The position numbers and the translations under genes are program-made. 36,331 nt of DNA from a virus, in the IMG/VR virus record IMGVR_UViG_3300033049_000058, positions 1 to 36,331 of that record; one strand, written 5' to 3'. The notes under the pieces are model-generated. The model was given only the letters and a program-made list of their open reading frames with translations, was not told the origin of the DNA and did not search any database. Every line of letters begins with the position of its first letter. The stretch's first letter is position 1. This document shows, piece by piece, positions 1-36,331 of the stretch.

Positions 1-239
1 GAACTGGGCTATAACTGTTGAAGATACATTAGTGCCAGAAGGCAATTTAACTGATGAATATTCATCACTTCATTGGGCTGCTAAATCAGCAGCAGACGTG
101 CTATTAACAAATGCTGATGTTGTTTTAACAGCAGCAGACGTTGTAACTATAGCTGGCGCAGAAGCAGCCACAGCAGCAGACGTGCTATTAACAAATGCTG
201 ATGTTGTTTTAACAGCAGCAGACGTTGTAACTACAAACG
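1..239 (+). repeat. Terminal direct repeat, copy 1 (identical to 36093-36331)
   Basis: Bases 1-239 match 36093-36331 without a difference. The repeat is inside one open reading frame, and the frame is kept when the two copies are merged. This is what a circular contig that was not trimmed looks like. A true physical terminal repeat in the middle of a fibre gene would be odd. Confidence 0.9.
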
Positions 240-4096: not shown

Positions 4097-4419
4097 AAGA
4101 TAATACCCGCGATAGCGGATACAACCCGGAATTTGCCGATAGGCTGGCTGCAGAGACTAAAAATACAATTAACCACATATACGTTAACTATATTTTGGAT
4201 TTAGAGAAAGATATGATCGGCATCAAGAAAGAGCAAGAGTTTCAAGAGAGAGATATAGGCGCATTAAAATCATTAATTAATGATATGGCGGATAAGCTCG
4301 ACATTGGATTAGCTCTTACAAGAAAGATATGGTGGTTATTGGTTGGTGTCGCAGCAACGGTCGCAATTATAGCCGCTATACTTAAATTCATAACGCCATT
4401 ATTTCAACTCGTTAGTTAA
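4093..4419 (+). CDS. XhlA-like coiled-coil membrane protein, probable lysis accessory
   Basis: The 108-aa product has a charged helical N-terminal part (about residues 12-70, with LEKDMIGIKKEQEFQERDIGALKSL) and one C-terminal membrane helix (IWWLLVGVAATVAIIAAIL, about 80-98). This is the topology of haemolysin XhlA, which works with a holin in phage lysis. It overlaps the upstream holin-like gene by 4 bases and meets the minus-strand recombinase gene tail to tail with an 8-base overlap. The function is inferred from topology and context. Confidence 0.5.
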   Translation: MKDNTRDSGYNPEFADRLAAETKNTINHIYVNYILDLEKDMIGIKKEQEFQERDIGALKSLINDMADKLDIGLALTRKIWWLLVGVAATVAIIAAILKFITPLFQLVS

Positions 4420-5014
4420 ACAAATTAGCAGCCATCCGCGCTGTAACTTTGCTATAATGAGATTCAATCATAGACGTACTGGTGCCCATCTGTCGCGCAA
4501 GTAGGTGCATCGGCACGCCCTCTAATAGTTTACGTGTAGCAAACGAGTGTCGTAGACTATATAAGCTATAGCGTTTACCTCGTTTATCTCTTAACAAGTC
4601 AATAGTCTTTAACAATAGCTCGAATGCGCCATGTAAATCTTTAGGTGTAGTGCCATCACTTAAAACAAACACGTACTCACTGTCAGATACATTGCGATCT
4701 TTTAGTCTATTTAAATAGCGACGCAACCGATTGCCAGCAACCAACTCACGCTCACCAGTCTTTCCGTTTACAGTGATGGCATAGTACGTGCGTCCATCTT
4801 TATAAAAAGTGTCAATATCCGTATAACGCAGATTAATTAATTCAGTGCCCGGTCTACATCCAGTTAAAATTACAAAGTGAACGTAGTCGCGCAATAGCTG
4901 CCGTATTTCAGTTGTCCGTTGTTTGCGGCCTGTCTTTTCATAAGTTCGCAAAGCAGTGATTACAAGCTTAATTTCAGTGGGTGTAAAAGCAGGTCGTTTG
5001 GCACTATTTTTCAT
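4412..5014 (-). CDS. Catalytic-domain-only tyrosine recombinase (200 aa)
   Basis: The start at 5014 is chosen because AGAGGA lies at normal distance upstream on the minus strand; the frame stays open to 5230 but the added residues do not resemble a recombinase. Conserved points are R54 (TGCRPGTE), K85, R155 (SLRHSFAT) and Y187 (SHYSKV). The box II first His is replaced by Tyr and the LGH motif reads MGT. The SAM-like core-binding domain present in the neighbouring integrase is absent. The protein aligns with residues about 190-386 of that integrase (RP-FT--E-KL, LTG-RPGTE, LYSLRHS), so the two are paralogues. It may be a directionality partner, a regulator or a relic. It is the only minus-strand gene seen. 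Confidence 0.75.
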   Translation of the reverse strand: MKNSAKRPAFTPTEIKLVITALRTYEKTGRKQRTTEIRQLLRDYVHFVILTGCRPGTELINLRYTDIDTFYKDGRTYYAITVNGKTGERELVAGNRLRRYLNRLKDRNVSDSEYVFVLSDGTTPKDLHGAFELLLKTIDLLRDKRGKRYSLYSLRHSFATRKLLEGVPMHLLARQMGTSTSMIESHYSKVTARMAANLFN

Positions 5015-5043
5015 ACACAATCCTCTATGGTCTGTTGCGTGTA

Positions 5044-5052
5044 TGTTATAAT
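5044..5052 (+). promoter_or_regulatory. Extended -10 promoter element upstream of attP and integrase
   Basis: TGTTATAAT is a TGn-TATAAT extended -10 element on the plus strand, with no good -35. The complementary strand reads ATTATAACA, which could also serve the minus-strand recombinase gene. Integrase transcription would then cross attP and be cut off by integration. Confidence 0.3.
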
Positions 5053-5150
5053 GCTGAAATTGCGTACAAAGTGCGACCGCCCGCAAAACTTTATACGACT
5101 TTATATGTGATTTAGCCCATACAAAAAGCAAGGGTATTAAGCTGAGAGAG

Positions 5151-5168
5151 TTGTAACTATTTGAATCT
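5151..5168 (+). promoter_or_regulatory. Candidate integrase-binding site, left of the attP core
   Basis: TTGTAACTATTTGAATCT matches the reverse complement of 5261-5278 at 16 of 18 positions. The two copies face each other across the attP core. ACTTTATA also occurs at 5088 and 5098 on this side and at 5291 on the other, a second possible arm-type site. Confidence 0.5.
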
Positions 5169-5180
5169 ACTGCTAAAAGA

Positions 5181-5236
5181 TGGTGCCGAGAAGAGGACTT
5201 GAACCTCCACGGGCCTAAGCCCACTAGCACCTGAAG
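5181..5236 (-). other. attP: attP core: 3' part of a tRNA-Leu(CAG) gene
   Basis: Read on the minus strand, this segment starts in the anticodon loop (CTTCAGGTGCTAG), continues with a variable arm (GGGC-TTA-GGCCC), a T arm (GGAGG-TTCAAGT-CCTCT), an acceptor strand and CCA. Upstream of CTTCAGG the tRNA pattern stops: the 5' anticodon-stem strand does not match GCTAG. No complete tRNA is present. The segment is the tRNA identity block that a tRNA-integrating phage carries to restore the gene, with strand exchange probably in the anticodon loop (anticodon CAG). Confidence 0.85.
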
Positions 5237-5380: not shown

Positions 5381-6541
5381 ATGGCAAAGATATTACAAGT
5401 ACACAACATAGACACAAACCTATCTGTTTACAAACAAGATAACAGTACAAGGTACTACGCTCGATTTAAATTAGATAACGAATGGTACTACAAAGCAACT
5501 GGTGAAACTGTTATTGATAAAGCTATAACAAAAGCTATTCGGTTACAAACCGAATACAACATTATGATAAGCAATAATATGCCCATTCATACGCTGCGAC
5601 ATAGCAAGAAACACGCATTTAAAACTATAGCAGAACAAGCTATTACACGTATTGAAGATGCGATTACAAATGGCACCGGCAAACCAAGCTATCCATCATA
5701 CATCTCTATCATTAAGCAATATTATATTCCGTACTTTAAAATGATGAATATACGCAAAGCTGTAACAGCCGAAATACTACAAGAGTTGGAACCCTATATA
5801 ACAAAGCAGTTAGGACGAATCCCATTTAAATCTACAATGAATACTTATAACACCGCGCTATCTCGTGTTATTGATGAAGCTGTTATCCGAAAACTGATTA
5901 CACCATCCGAGGTGCCTGTACTACAAAACAATGGTCATAGTGGTGAACGACGTGGATCGTTTACACGTGCCGAGTACAAACTGATCGTTCACGAAGCTTG
6001 GGATCGCATTTCTGAATCACGCAAGCAGGTCACGTTTGATATACGTACGGACTTATATTATTACATACAGCTTGTAGCACTAACTGGGATTCGTCCAGGT
6101 ACTGAAGTTGAGGGGCTAACGTGGGGTGACATTCATATGCGTGAGATTGATGGCGGCGTCTATAATACTATTACAGTCAGGAGTGGCAAGACAACTAAAC
6201 ACACTGGTACACGAGAGATAGTTGCGAAAAACGAGATACTTACAGTGATAGCCGACCTAATGGCAAAAGCAGAAAACACTGAAAAGGATACACCAATCTT
6301 CATAAAGACAAATGAGTACAGTGGCAACTTCCGAAAAATATTAAATAAATTAAATTTAAAGCGAGATGCGCATGGTGATAGGACGTTATATAGTTTGCGA
6401 CACAGTTACATCACTTGGGAGTTGCAACGCGGCACCGCAATAGCCGCAATCGCTACGCAATGCGGCAACAGTGCCGAAATAATTGAGCGCCATTATAGTC
6501 ACATCATTGCCAGCGACTTTGCGAAGCAGCTAAGCAGATAA
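5381..6541 (+). CDS. int: Tyrosine integrase
   Basis: The 386-aa protein has an N-terminal arm-binding-like region (1-75), a helical core-binding domain (about 78-185) and a catalytic domain (about 190-386). Catalytic points: R238 in LTGIRPGTE, K270 in RSGK, R340-H341 in LYSLRHSY, and nucleophile Y372 in IERHYSH. The first box II position is Tyr and the usual LGH reads CGN; such changes occur in related phage integrases. The gene begins 145 bases from the attP core, the usual arrangement for an integrase using a tRNA site. The RBS is GCGAGGA. On integration this gene would end up at one prophage end and its minus-strand paralogue at the other. Confidence 0.9.
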   Translation: MAKILQVHNIDTNLSVYKQDNSTRYYARFKLDNEWYYKATGETVIDKAITKAIRLQTEYNIMISNNMPIHTLRHSKKHAFKTIAEQAITRIEDAITNGTGKPSYPSYISIIKQYYIPYFKMMNIRKAVTAEILQELEPYITKQLGRIPFKSTMNTYNTALSRVIDEAVIRKLITPSEVPVLQNNGHSGERRGSFTRAEYKLIVHEAWDRISESRKQVTFDIRTDLYYYIQLVALTGIRPGTEVEGLTWGDIHMREIDGGVYNTITVRSGKTTKHTGTREIVAKNEILTVIADLMAKAENTEKDTPIFIKTNEYSGNFRKILNKLNLKRDAHGDRTLYSLRHSYITWELQRGTAIAAIATQCGNSAEIIERHYSHIIASDFAKQLSR

Positions 6542-7060: not shown

Positions 7061-7151
7061 CGCAGTTTTTGCGCCTCTCAGCTACTATGACGTATTCCCC
7101 CGCTTAACCCCGCTAAAACACCTCTTAAATAATTTTCGGATAACTTACCCC

Positions 7152-7160
7152 TGTGGATAA
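7152..7160 (-). promoter_or_regulatory. Perfect DnaA box 1
   Basis: The minus strand reads TTATCCACA, the strict DnaA-box consensus, at the start of repeat copy 1. Confidence 0.65.
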
Positions 7161-7271
7161 GTCTCGTTTTAGCACTACTATATAGTAGTTGATGAAATAA
7201 GACCCCAATTACAATTATCCCATTGATTTATTGAATTAATTACTCACTTCTGCGGATTAATTACTTACCCC

Positions 7272-7280
7272 TGTGGATAA
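7272..7280 (-). promoter_or_regulatory. Perfect DnaA box 2
   Basis: The minus strand reads TTATCCACA again, exactly 120 bp after box 1. Confidence 0.65.
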
Positions 7281-7425
7281 GTCTCGTTTTAGCACTACTA
7301 TATAGTAGTTGATGAAATAAGACCCCAATTACAATTACCCATTGATTTATTGAATTAATTACTCACTTCTGCGGATTTGGATAAACTTAAATCATATTAC
7401 TGTCTCGTTATGATAAATAACTGTA

Positions 7426-7503
7426 GCACTTAATTAATTGCTGTTATTGGCTCTCACAATGTGTTCATAATATATTCACCAATAACAGCAATTAATTAAG
7501 TGC
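7426..7503. repeat. Perfect 25-bp inverted repeat before the polymerase-like gene
   Basis: Arm 7426-7450 (from GCACTTAATT to TGTTATTGG) is the exact reverse complement of 7479-7503, with a 28-base loop. There is no T-tract, so it is not a simple terminator. It ends 41 bases before the ATG of the polymerase-like gene and follows a GATAAATAAC box at 7412. It could be an autoregulatory operator, a leader RNA hairpin or a single-strand initiation structure. Confidence 0.8.
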
Positions 7504-7544: not shown

Positions 7545-9248
7545 ATGAACCAAATTACAGCATTCACAAATCACGCCCAACGCTTACTCATACGCGATTA
7601 CCCGGAACTAACAGAAAAACATCGTACTAAAATAATAGCTAGATACATTAAAGCGGTAACGACAGAGATAAACTCGAAGTTATGCCAATTTATGTTAGAC
7701 AATGATCATTACATAGTAAGCACTTATACCATAAATCAACACAGTAGAAGCACCATAAATGGTAAACAAGTCTGTATGCATAAATGGTTTACAGATAACT
7801 GTCCACTAATGCAGATAGTGAATTTAGGCAGTAATATAAAGAAGCAGTACACAGAGATTAAAATGACCTACCACCTAGAGATTATGATAGATGCTATATA
7901 CGCAGAGCTATTAACCAAATCAGATTTAACTGATGATGAAAGAAATGAATACGCAGCGCAATTATACACACCTGAGTTTTATAGCATTATAGGAAATGAT
8001 ACTAATGAAGTTGCTTATACGCCAATTGACGTTGATTCGTTACACGCATATATAATTTATATTAGTAACCAAATTACACAAGTTCAGTACGCATCCAAAG
8101 GGATAAACACACTAAAACGCAGGCTTAAAGAAGCAAAGCGGATTTATAGCATTGCGCGAGTGTTTAATGGGCAACTGCCGCTGATAATTAATAACAGTGA
8201 GTTTGGTCGCAAGTACTACAGAGGGCCAAACTTACAGTCGGTGAGTAAGTCAGTACGACACGCGGCGTTAGGCAGGTGCATTGAATATGACATTGAAAAC
8301 TCAGTTTATGCGTGGCGTTACACAGAGACTATGCGCATATCAACTGATGCAGGTGTAGAGATAGCACTGCCTGCGACGTTAACCTATTTAGAGCGTAAAT
8401 CTGCTATTCGGGAAGAGATAGCACTACATACATTCGAAGACTCGCAGCACTCAACTGAAAGCGCAGTGAAAATAATTAAAGAGGCATTTACAGCTATTGG
8501 GTTCGGCGCACAAGGCTCAACAAAGACAGCCGTATGGTACATTAACGGCGAAAAGAAAACGCAATCACTTAACGCAATCATATACAGCCCAAAACATAGA
8601 AAACTATTTCTTGAGCATCCATTCGTTTTACAGTTTATAGAAGAGCAGAAAGTGATCAGTAGCATTATATTTGAGTTTCATAGCAAAGACGCCAAGCTTA
8701 CAAAGATGAAGTGCCTACAAACAGAAGCAGGTAAGTTAAGCAAGCCCAAGACATTAGCATACTTCTATCAGCAACAAGAACGAGTGCTATTAGATACAGC
8801 AGTACAACAACTAGACGCAGGCAATATACTACTAACAGTACACGATGCGTTTTATATTAAAAATGCAGATGCCGAAGGAATCAAGGCTGCGAAGCACGAG
8901 CTAAAGCAGTACAACAAAGAGCTTGATTTGGGCAAAGTTACACATACAGCAAATCAAGTCACAATGCAGCCTCAGGCAGATATTGATAAAGCATCACATC
9001 TGCATCGCATCACCCAGGAAAAGCGCAACGCAAAAGAATACATTCCTGACAGTCCACTAGTTAAATTACGTATTAAAACCGACAAGATAGTAAGCGTTGA
9101 ATCAATGTTGTATGAACACGGCAAGCAAGCAGCTGATACAACTTATATAACACAGATTAAAGACCAGATACGCAAAGATGAGTCAATCAACACAACTCGT
9201 GCCGACATAACTAAAATATTAAAGGAACGCAAATCGCAACGACAGTAA
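7545..9248 (+). CDS. Compact family-A-polymerase-like protein, candidate replication protein
   Basis: The 567-aa protein starts after ACAAGGAATTATATT. The order of motifs matches the Pol I/T7-RNAP superfamily: FGRKYYRGPNLQSVSKSVR (220-238), like the GR-x(n)-PNLQNIP-x-R of Pol I; motif A EYDIENSVYAWR with D249; motif B VKIIKEAFTAIGFGA with K312 and F320-G321, the same K-x7-(Y/F)-G spacing as in Pol I and T7 RNAP; and motif C LLTVHDAFYIKN with H433-D434. The distance from motif A to C (185 residues) is close to that of Pol I. There is no room for the Klenow 3'-5' exonuclease. Residues 1-200 and 470-567 are helical, charged and unassigned. Together with the DnaA-box repeats upstream it is the likely replication gene. 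Whether it makes DNA, RNA or primers is not visible. Confidence 0.6.
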   Translation: MNQITAFTNHAQRLLIRDYPELTEKHRTKIIARYIKAVTTEINSKLCQFMLDNDHYIVSTYTINQHSRSTINGKQVCMHKWFTDNCPLMQIVNLGSNIKKQYTEIKMTYHLEIMIDAIYAELLTKSDLTDDERNEYAAQLYTPEFYSIIGNDTNEVAYTPIDVDSLHAYIIYISNQITQVQYASKGINTLKRRLKEAKRIYSIARVFNGQLPLIINNSEFGRKYYRGPNLQSVSKSVRHAALGRCIEYDIENSVYAWRYTETMRISTDAGVEIALPATLTYLERKSAIREEIALHTFEDSQHSTESAVKIIKEAFTAIGFGAQGSTKTAVWYINGEKKTQSLNAIIYSPKHRKLFLEHPFVLQFIEEQKVISSIIFEFHSKDAKLTKMKCLQTEAGKLSKPKTLAYFYQQQERVLLDTAVQQLDAGNILLTVHDAFYIKNADAEGIKAAKHELKQYNKELDLGKVTHTANQVTMQPQADIDKASHLHRITQEKRNAKEYIPDSPLVKLRIKTDKIVSVESMLYEHGKQAADTTYITQIKDQIRKDESINTTRADITKILKERKSQRQ

Positions 9249-12623: not shown

Positions 12624-13112
12624 AGAGCGGAATTGATTATTAGTCCAGGGCCGGAATGGTGATGGATATGGTTATGGTGATGGTGATGGTGATGGTGACG
12701 AATCTGACACCAAATTTCAGCCTCCACCACCCGCCCAAAGATAGACTCAAAGCCCAGCACAATGGCAATCCACCCGCAATCACCACCCGCAATCACCACC
12801 CAGAGATAGACCCACTCACCTTGTCAACCATTTAGAGCATACCCGTCATAACTCGCATATAAGCAACGATCATAACAACAAGCAGCCTACGTACAGAGAC
12901 ACTGTTATATAGCTGTAAGACGCTTATATATTCAATGATCAAAGACTTACAGCACTATAAGTCACCATTCAGATCAGCCTCACCATAACCCAGCATAACT
13001 CACTGTAAGTACTGCGAATACCGTCTTGACACAATAATACTGTAATGAACTGTGCGTACACGGTGAATAACAGTGAATAACAGCCGGATCCAAACTATCG
13101 CCCGGCGATCAG

Positions 13113-13330
13113 AGATATAACACAAGAATGGCGGTTATAGCCGGTTATTCATATAAAACCAAAGTCTGCCCGCGCAGATCAGAGATGAACGTAGGAATGG
13201 CATCACAGCCGTTCTTATAGAGAAAACCAAAGTCTGCCCGCACAGATCCGAGATATAACACAAGAATGGCGGTTATAGCCGGTTATTCATATAAAACCAA
13301 AGTCTGCCCGCACAGATCCGAGATGAAACA
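13113..13330 (+). repeat. Iterons of about 69 bp upstream of terS, candidate packaging site
   Basis: Units start at 13113, 13183 and 13251, and a fourth begins at 13321. The core ACCAAAGTCTGCCCGC occurs at 13158, 13226 and 13296. Units 1 and 3 are almost identical (AGATATAACACAAGAATGG and what follows); unit 2 has diverged in its first half. Small terminase subunits recognise repeated sites next to their own gene, as in cosB of lambda, so these are the best candidates. A cleavage site cannot be seen. Confidence 0.5.
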
Positions 13331-28401: not shown

Positions 28402-28758
28402 ATGGCTATCACATCCTTTCAGTTCACAAAGATCCTTACAGGCGCTTATACACAAACACCAGTTGACGCAACTCGTCGCACAGAGATGAGTGATGGTGTC
28501 GCTAAGCAAGCTACACGATTTAACAAATCATATATAAATCATAAAATGAGTTATTTAATGACTGCTGCTGAGTTTGCGTCATTTAAAACGTGGTGGACTG
28601 GGTCAAGTGGTTATGGCGCATTAGCATTTAACTTTGCGAACCCAACGACAAATACAACCGTAGATGGTCGCATTCCAGATGGCTTATATACAGCAACACC
28701 AAACGACAGTGAATGGTTGTATTGGGTCGTGGATATTACAGTCGAGACTTTGGAATGA
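28402..28758 (+). CDS. Minor tail protein
   Basis: The 118-aa product has SYLMTAAEFASFKTWW, GYGALAFNFANPTT and a closing WLYWVVDITVETLE. The (Y)LM-AAE---F--WW---GYGA--F pattern is frequent in small minor tail proteins that follow the tape measure in lambda-like gene orders. The stop overlaps the start of the homing endonuclease gene (ATGA), so the mobile gene has been inserted exactly at the gene end. Confidence 0.75.
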   Translation: MAITSFQFTKILTGAYTQTPVDATRRTEMSDGVAKQATRFNKSYINHKMSYLMTAAEFASFKTWWTGSSGYGALAFNFANPTTNTTVDGRIPDGLYTATPNDSEWLYWVVDITVETLE

Positions 28759-29381
28759 GCGTTACGACATTTATATATGCGCTATATGATCCGCGCGACC
28801 CAGAGCAATACAGATACATCGGCAAAGCAAACGATCCTGATGATCGGCTTAAAACCGGGCACTTACGGGGAACAAAAGCAGTAACATACAAATCGAACTG
28901 GATTAAAAAGTTATTAAGGGAAGATGCTATACCAGAAGTAATTATTGTAGCTGAAGTACTTACATGCGAATGGCAGAACGCAGAAACACATTTTATAGCT
29001 CTGTACAAAAGACTCGGGCATAAGTTAACAAACTCAACAGACGGTGGTGAAGGTGCCGGCAGTTTTATGTTAGCTGAAACAAAACGTAAGATTGGCGAAG
29101 CAAATAAAGGTAAAAAGCATTTACCACGCTCAGAAGAAACCCGAGCGAAGATGAGTGCATCTCATAAAGGCCGCAAACACACTGAAGAGGCAAAACGTAA
29201 GATTGGCGAATACAATAAAGGTAAAAAAAGGCAACCAAAAACAGAAGAAATGAAACGTAGATTAAGTAAAGCACTTAAAGGAAAGAAAATACCAACAGTA
29301 ACTTGCCCGCATTGTAGCAAGACAGGCGGCGGTGGATCAATGCAACGCTGGCACTTTGATAATTGCAAGGAGGCATTATAA
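28755..29381 (+). CDS. GIY-YIG homing endonuclease
   Basis: I use the ATG at 28755 (208 aa). Residues 7-33 (IYALYDPRD and YRYIGKANDPDDRL) are a GIY-YIG nuclease start in which GIY reads YAL. Further motif: NAETHFIALYKRLGHKLTN, then a TDGGEG turn. Three NUMOD3 DNA-binding repeats follow (ETKRKIGEANKGKKH, ETRAKMSASHKGRKH, EAKRKIGEYNKGKKR), and a fourth is partial. The end is a zinc finger, CPHC...HFDNC. It lies between two tail genes as a free-standing mobile gene. It is probably active: no residue loss is evident apart from the altered GIY. Confidence 0.88.
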   Translation: MSVTTFIYALYDPRDPEQYRYIGKANDPDDRLKTGHLRGTKAVTYKSNWIKKLLREDAIPEVIIVAEVLTCEWQNAETHFIALYKRLGHKLTNSTDGGEGAGSFMLAETKRKIGEANKGKKHLPRSEETRAKMSASHKGRKHTEEAKRKIGEYNKGKKRQPKTEEMKRRLSKALKGKKIPTVTCPHCSKTGGGGSMQRWHFDNCKEAL

Positions 29382-35601: not shown

Positions 35602-36331
35602 ATGGCACAATATAAAAACGGATCAGTTACAGTTACAAACGGCAGCGCGGTTATAGTTGGTGTCGGAACGACGTGGCTATTGGAAATTGCGGTAGGTGAT
35701 TTATTCATCGTACAAGGCAAGAAGGTTGCGTACTTCGTTAACTCAGTAGATACAGATGCCCAAATAACACTGTCAACTGTCATAACAGAAGCAAGTGGCA
35801 ACTATGCGTATTCAATCACACGAGACTTTACAGGTAATTTTAACTTTCCTATAGTTGGGTTCGGTGATGTTAATGCGCCAACACTGATAAGCAAAGCTAT
35901 CGTAGAGATTGATGGAGCGCTCAGTGACGCAAGCAACGCGGGTGGTGTAGCAGAATCGAAAGCTTGGGCTATGACCGATGAAGATATATTCGTGCCGCAA
36001 GGCAATTTAACTGATGAATATTCATCACTTCATTGGGCAGCTAAATCAGAAGAAAGTGCGAGTGGCGTAGCGGCATTCGCAACCGAGTCTATGAACTGGG
36101 CTATAACTGTTGAAGATACATTAGTGCCAGAAGGCAATTTAACTGATGAATATTCATCACTTCATTGGGCTGCTAAATCAGCAGCAGACGTGCTATTAAC
36201 AAATGCTGATGTTGTTTTAACAGCAGCAGACGTTGTAACTATAGCTGGCGCAGAAGCAGCCACAGCAGCAGACGTGCTATTAACAAATGCTGATGTTGTT
36301 TTAACAGCAGCAGACGTTGTAACTACAAACG
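35602..36331 (+). CDS. Tail fibre protein, 5' part (runs off the window, continues at base 2)
   Basis: The ATG at 35602 follows AAAAAGGAATT and a GTCATAAATACT box at 35570. The N-terminal region (about residues 1-115) is a beta-rich segment with NGSVTVTNGSAVIVGVGTTW, which resembles the N-terminal virion-anchoring domain of many phage fibres. It is followed by the first two copies of the GNLTDEYSSLHWAAKS motif and the start of the heptad shaft. The last 239 bases are identical to bases 1-239. Removing one copy joins the frame exactly: 491 bases before the junction plus 1333 after it give 608 codons including the stop. The gene closes the tail block that begins at 25449. Confidence 0.85.
   Translation, partial: MAQYKNGSVTVTNGSAVIVGVGTTWLLEIAVGDLFIVQGKKVAYFVNSVDTDAQITLSTVITEASGNYAYSITRDFTGNFNFPIVGFGDVNAPTLISKAIVEIDGALSDASNAGGVAESKAWAMTDEDIFVPQGNLTDEYSSLHWAAKSEESASGVAAFATESMNWAITVEDTLVPEGNLTDEYSSLHWAAKSAADVLLTNADVVLTAADVVTIAGAEAATAADVLLTNADVVLTAADVVTTN
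36093..36331 (+). repeat. Terminal direct repeat, copy 2 (identical to 1-239)
   Basis: This is the second copy of the overlap described at 1-239. Merging the two copies gives a circle of 36,092 bp. Confidence 0.9.

Follow-up and report, generated by a model that had tools for sequence, protein, structure and literature searches.

A solitary family-A-like polymerase, a divergent relative of TV-Pol enzymes, is the gene common to otherwise different small tailed phages and may start their replication

INTRODUCTION

To our knowledge, nearly all primases belong to one of two families. Lambda O, iteron plasmid Rep and ColE2 Rep are initiators that bind repeats in or beside their own genes and obtain the replisome from the host, and we know of no family A polymerase domain in any of the three. 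The TV-Pol family of polymerases was described in 2008 by Iyer, Abhiman, and Aravind; its founding members are located in transposon-like elements, and one of them is encoded by Microcystis phage LMM01 (PMC2579912). CcPol, which is placed among the TV-Pols and retains counterparts of Pol I E710 and F762, is an experimentally shown primase: together with its partner MP it produces DNA primers, and in the absence of MP it performs primer extension only (PMC7581432). CcPol opened a third primase route, consisting of a Pol I-like enzyme, a single-stranded DNA-binding protein (SSB) partner, and a helicase.

The window analyzed here is the whole of a 36,331-nucleotide viral stretch (IMG/VR record IMGVR_UViG_3300033049_000058). 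A first-pass annotation had read one of its genes as a compact family-A-like polymerase core without an exonuclease domain, possibly of a new or uncommon type. We followed up this reading by sequence, profile, and structure comparisons. The features discussed below are collected in Table 1.

Table 1. Features of the polymerase locus and the window, by position
Feature	Positions	Strand	Details
Terminal overlap	1-239		Identical to 36093-36331
Tyrosine recombinase (neighbor)	4412-5230	-	PF00589, E 1.3e-8
Tyrosine recombinase (neighbor)	5381-6541	+	PF00589, E 2.3e-8
119-bp direct repeat, copy 1	7140-7258		DnaA box 7152-7160 (-); 16-bp palindrome 7174-7189
119-bp direct repeat, copy 2 (98%)	7260-7377		DnaA box 7272-7280 (-); palindrome 7294-7309
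Promoter-like element TGATAAATAACT, upstream of polymerase gene	7411-7422	+	
25-bp perfect inverted repeat	7426-7503		Arms 7426-7450 and 7479-7503; 28-nt spacer
Solitary family-A-like polymerase gene	7545-9248	+	567 aa, ATG start; alignment and fold prediction
N-terminal domain, residues 1-182, winged-helix-like	7545-8090	+	Candidate DNA-binding domain; putative, weak
Beta-hairpin and template-contact segment SEFGRKYYRGPNLQ	8196-8237	+	Holds R222; counterpart of Pol I TGR...PNLQ
Motif A, YDIENS	8283-8309	+	Catalytic D249; V254 at Pol I E710 position
Motif B, K312-x7-F320-G321-A	8478-8510	+	
Q409-x2-E412	8769-8780	+	Counterpart of Pol I Q849 region; invariant in alignment
Motif C, LLTVHDAF region	8832-8852	+	H433-D434

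RESULTS

Catalytic motifs

The first-pass annotation had noted motifs in Pol I order in this open reading frame, with a motif A-to-C spacing of 185 residues (434 - 249), and both observations were borne out. The opposite strand of the frame contains stop codons throughout. Across 24 aligned sequences, two Polaromonas proteins included, the invariant positions are R222, Y224, L230, Q231, R238, A240 through L242, D249, R289, K312, G321, A322, Q409, E412, L430, H433, and D434. The first four lie in the hairpin segment, in which FGRKYYRGPNLQ makes up residues 220 to 231. As judged from the alignment, the invariant set comprises the catalytic marks of superfamily A, namely, the hairpin arginine (R222), NLQ, the motif A aspartate (D249), the motif B Lys-x7-(Y/F)G (K312 onward), and the motif C His-Asp (with D434), and invariance across 24 divergent sequences excludes the chance origin of such a motif set.

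An hhalign comparison with Pol I of E. coli and with gp5 of T7 matched the GR..PNLQ segment alone, and weakly (prob 1.4), so that the mapping of residues onto Pol I relies on motif spacing. By that spacing, V254 and T316 occupy the positions of Pol I E710, the steric gate, and F762. With these two replacements, the product could be DNA or RNA and the sugar chosen could be of either kind, in agreement with the first-pass annotation. That annotation had also treated the DIEN form of motif A as odd; it is in fact normal among the nearest relatives, being held in common with the Polaromonas plasmid proteins of pH8NP1 and pW9NP1 (YDIENCH in P0002).

Predicted fold

An AlphaFold2 model built from 17 sequences (pLDDT 78, with most of the core above 85) has a predicted right-hand palm, fingers, and thumb of the Pol I type, the fold of superfamily A. 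The best solved matches are family A DNA polymerases: Klenow (1kfd) was the top match in Foldseek (E 8e-7), and in VIA the Z score was 17.1 for Pol theta (4.0 A, 288 residues), 15.8 for T7 DNA polymerase, and 15.6 for Klenow, with about residues 152 to 471 of the model matched. RNA polymerases ranked far below DNA polymerases, at E 0.008 or worse. Uncharacterized phage proteins lead the matches among predicted viral proteins, which also include the Zamilon virophage replication protein (E 8e-7) and the polymerase of Rheinheimera phage Barba31A (E 9e-4). The model has no exonuclease domain; its N-terminal 150 residues are of a different nature, and confidence is low for most of the last 100. 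The predicted fold thus supports the compact, exonuclease-free core of the first-pass annotation.

Residues 1 to 182, modeled separately (pLDDT 81), contain a strand-helix-strand-strand-helix-strand-strand unit at 55 to 107. The top three Foldseek rows for this domain are the plasmid RepA initiators 5kbj, 4pql, and 4pt7, at E 0.3 to 1.4, below significance, and the VIA matches are mostly winged helices at Z 5.2 or less, the N-terminal domains of T7 RNAP and POLRMT among them. The predicted winged-helix and RepA resemblance is therefore suggestive only.

Relatives and family assignment

Direct HMM searches with the polymerase found nothing in Pfam or NCBIfam and nothing meaningful in PHROGs, and no PDB sequence was matched by the protein or by the family profile. 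The protein did not match PF00476 (DNA_pol_A) or the T7 RNAP-type Pfam family, and PF00476 had no match at E up to 10 in 15 phage records. Scans of single members against Pfam and PHROGs yielded chance-level matches, the best being the PHROG "DNA polymerase" at E 0.005 for one member. A sequence search with the window protein matched none of the phage records; a distant protein of Polaromonas plasmid pH8NP1 (24.5% identity, E 1e-4), the nearest annotated relative, was the single match. Pattern scans of IMG/VR for GRxYYxGxNLQ, at the protein and the DNA level, recovered some 27 distinct phage relatives, besides a near-identical copy of the window (L001, 99.99% over 12 kb). The relatives are mostly 420 to 590 amino acids long and show 18 to 42% identity to the window protein in the 24-sequence alignment (21 to 42% for complete ones). 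Among cellular sequences, a scan of genome contigs turned up a single incomplete gene, carried by a betaproteobacterial MAG (L011).

The two Polaromonas genes (L002 6095-7600 on pH8NP1 and L010 37-1653 on pW9NP1) are annotated as "Clp protease N-terminal domain" and "hypothetical," respectively, and the former label is probably a misannotation. A distant relative of 767 aa, in which the motifs FGRMYEFGMSLQ, YSVDM, CYGA, and LLHDG occur, is encoded at 4140 to 6443 of L009, the unannotated 142-kb genome of Nitratidesulfovibrio phage SRB7757.

By hhalign, the family profile matched a TV-Pol set (prob 98.9, E 1e-17, 278 columns) that joins the two Polaromonas proteins to gp30 of LMM01, which was reached through the Polaromonas relative; the Polaromonas proteins lead the alignment. 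Together with the Zamilon replication protein among the structural matches, this profile match places the family among the TV-Pol polymerases, as a divergent branch and so not a wholly new kind. The "possible new" of the first-pass annotation was thus too strong, given the tie to a family described in 2008 (PMC2579912).

A complete genome with one replication candidate

The window is a complete, circularly closable phage genome of 36,092 bp, as the 239-bp identical ends and a 613-residue tail-fiber frame that continues through the junction demonstrate. Exact terminal repeats of 121 to 239 bp were found in four records (239 bp in the window, 123 bp in G018, 127 bp in G016, and 121 bp in G012). 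The phage is small and temperate, and the polymerase family occurs in complete tailed phages of 30 to 36 kb.

Profile searches of 15 phage records (the window and 14 related ones) for DnaB_C, the SF1/2-helicase profile Helicase_C, VapE-like or D5-type proteins, SSB, and DNA_pol_A found none, whereas the control searches gave their expected matches, although such helicase profiles could miss divergent helicases. The first-pass observation that no helicase, primase, or exonuclease gene lies near the polymerase thus holds, and for the families searched the absence is genome-wide. In the window, G018, and G016, the sole P-loop pattern match resembling a true ATPase is the terminase. Near the polymerase gene, neither an SSB (PF00436) nor a conserved partner gene was found, MP proteins being undetectable by sequence. 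Of the genes in the 17 records compared, the polymerase alone is present in every record; the runner-up, a tail protein, occurs in 9. As the structural modules vary among the phages that carry it, the gene behaves as an exchangeable replication module, and it is the sole replication candidate of these small tailed phages. Three polymerase-negative phages matched by terminase (MW202777, MK613348, and OP947159) are annotated with ordinary DNA polymerase and helicase or primase genes.

Several other elements of these genomes were noted. The only candidate replication ATPase detected in the complete genomes is a 264-aa P-loop protein (SGDAGTGKT) of G012 (C1, 4008-4799, minus strand), which may be a helicase loader. 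In the window, the minus-strand tyrosine recombinase is short (272 aa), is oriented opposite to its neighbor, and may be truncated or bifunctional. Three 83-nt tandem copies (64 to 96%) at 13107 to 13327, between accessory genes and the gene for the small subunit of the terminase, are a possible packaging or regulatory site, and a 222-aa protein among the tail genes (28713-29381) reads as an inserted GIY-YIG homing endonuclease.

DNA upstream of the gene

Beyond the scope of the first-pass annotation, which had not described the complete genome or the sharing of the gene among otherwise different phages, origin-like repeats were found upstream of the polymerase. Direct repeats are enriched there relative to the rest of each sequence (Fisher p 4e-9 for 22 loci, which share ancestry and are not phylogenetically independent). 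The repeat sequences vary by phage, with five copies of GTGTAACTAAA in G002 (L007), three of ACAATGCGCTGTGA in G006, six of CAAAAGGAATCAGA in L062, and three of AAAGTCACGGCA in L035; the excess is weak at G004 and L017 and zero at G018, G016, L052, and L057. Two of the three perfect DnaA boxes in the window fall inside the repeats (0.37 expected), and these two represent a single event, the duplication of the repeat. DnaA boxes are absent near the gene in most relatives, and a strong inverted repeat is limited to the window, L007, and L018, so that neither is a family feature. The repeats may function as an origin; operators could show the same pattern.

The hexamer TAAATA is the most overrepresented one upstream of genes in 11 polymerase-bearing genomes (79 versus 18.2 expected, compared with 12 versus 12.5 for TATAAT), and across 17 records it is biased to the sense strand (112 versus 24 antisense). 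The element is T4-late-like, often stands 20 to 40 nt before genes (in the window at 7411, 9250, 9384, 11699, 13410, and 15460, and before many late genes), and occurs also in 16 related phages, in L142, L143, and L145 to L147, and in some polymerase-negative phages. A control set of 27 polymerase-negative loci with a window-like terminase was equally enriched (30 versus 7.4 expected, mostly from five loci), and no polymerase was found in the 17 control records searched whole, which include those five. The element is thus not tied to the polymerase, and its use as a sign of an RNA polymerase was rejected.

DISCUSSION

Our leading reading, which we rate as about as likely as not, is that the polymerase works alone as an origin-binding primase-polymerase and initiates replication on behalf of the host replisome. 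The winged-helix-like N-terminal domain (about residues 1 to 110) would bind the repeats at 7140 to 7377, upstream of its own gene; the palm, fingers, and thumb (about residues 154 to 471) would carry out the chemistry by means of two metal ions bound to D249 and D434, synthesizing a primer or an initial strand where the AT-rich origin has opened beside the hairpin at 7426 to 7503; and host DnaA, DnaB, Pol III, and SSB would then take over. One protein would in this way take on the tasks both of a Rep initiator, as in plasmids, and of a primase. We infer the repeat binding, the priming, and the hand-over from the predicted fold, the homology to TV-Pol, the primase activity of CcPol, the status of the gene as sole candidate, the origin-like DNA, and the RepA-like N-terminal rows, which are not significant. 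A stricter version, in which one protein is both initiator and primase-polymerase of the replicon, with a relaxed choice between dNTPs and rNTPs and no phage helicase, loader, SSB, or other polymerase, is put forward tentatively. Several observations argue against the primase-polymerase: the upstream repeats could be operators for autoregulation, and some loci lack them; the N-terminal fold matches are not significant (E 0.3; Z 5.2 or less); the arginine of the Pol I and TV-Pol RxxxK is replaced (V308); no SSB or MP neighbor is detectable, whereas CcPol requires MP to prime; and the DnaA boxes go back to one duplication and are absent near the gene in most relatives, while divergent helicases could have been missed.

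A rival reading is a TV-Pol-type, primer-dependent DNA polymerase that extends host-made primers or fills gaps, with the repeats as its own operators and no role as initiator or primase. Such an enzyme, which we regard as unlikely though a serious contender, agrees with the DNA-polymerase-like core, with the mere primer extension by CcPol alone (PMC7581432), with the lack of a recognizable MP or SSB partner, and with repeats positioned where operators would be; yet it would leave the phages without a recognizable initiator, although this gene alone is common to all 17 records, and with host DNA polymerases on hand a bare extension enzyme would be of little evident use. A single-subunit RNA polymerase with a T7-like or mitochondrial-like function, which would use a short TAAATA promoter for the transcription of phage genes and perhaps also prime replication, is improbable. 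The Y639F substitution relaxes sugar choice in T7 RNAP, and here F320 stands at the Y639 position and V254 at that of the steric gate; the N-terminus weakly matches those of T7 RNAP and POLRMT (Z 5.2 or less), and TAAATA is enriched and strand biased in polymerase-bearing phages. But polymerase-negative loci have the same TAAATA ratio, a failed control that reduces the argument to weak points about residues, while among solved structures DNA polymerases are much the better matches, both the PNLQ segment and the spacing from motif A to motif C resemble Pol I, and the T7 RNAP Pfam family is not matched. A mobile or accessory polymerase serving transposition, repair, defense, or reverse transcription rather than replication seems very improbable. 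The founding TV-Pols lie in transposon-like elements (PMC2579912), LMM01 gp30 adjoins transposase genes, and two tyrosine recombinases flank the gene on one side in the window, but 13 of the 15 phage records have no tyrosine recombinase, and the gene, unlike an accessory one, is constant across otherwise different phages.

Read as a primase-polymerase, this family, for which Pfam, PHROGs, and NCBIfam have no entry, resembles the CcPol route cut down to a single protein. If origin recognition and priming both proved true, the protein would amount to a minimal system for replication that could be used in biotechnology, and it would offer a close test of the way in which family A DNA polymerases gained de novo initiation, a step shared with T7-like RNA polymerases.

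Among the known systems, lambda differs in that the gene for a helicase loader, P, is also listed in its record. The Polaromonas plasmids also encode RepA and ParA, and the polymerase is thus not their only Rep. The divPolA2 proteins of barbaviruses and others (PMC11348598), with which the structural match to the Barba31A polymerase is a point of contact, likewise consist of a phage family A core without a 3' exonuclease and with an N-terminal domain of unknown nature, and an RNA polymerase was considered for them too; they differ in standing beside a regular PolB in larger phages, and so are not the sole polymerase, and in their motif A, VYDFKAFETS. The CcPol-MP and PolA-SSB primases are, like the window protein, truncated Pol I-like polymerases of mobile elements (PMC7581432, PMC10061031), but CcPol has the E710 and F762 counterparts, MP, and a helicase, whereas the window protein has V254 and T316, with no helicase found and no recognized SSB partner. 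The TV-Pols are the closest. In one known context they are fused or adjacent to a D5-type helicase, and none was found in the 15 phage records here, although a very divergent one could be missed; the RxxxK arginine is not kept, K312 being invariant and the position four residues before it (V308) variable, and by eye LMM01 gp30 also lacks that arginine. Their resolvase, integrase, or transposase context is matched in the window by the two nearby tyrosine recombinases, and 2 of the 15 phages have one. Like TV-Pol, the family has a minimal superfamily A core without a fused nuclease, with the conserved hairpin arginine, two catalytic aspartates, and fingers lysine, and it shares the additional N-terminal domain, here winged-helix-like with no family match outside the core, and carriage by mobile elements. 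In the present phages, the gene is solitary and adjoins iteron-like repeats in the genomes of tailed viruses.
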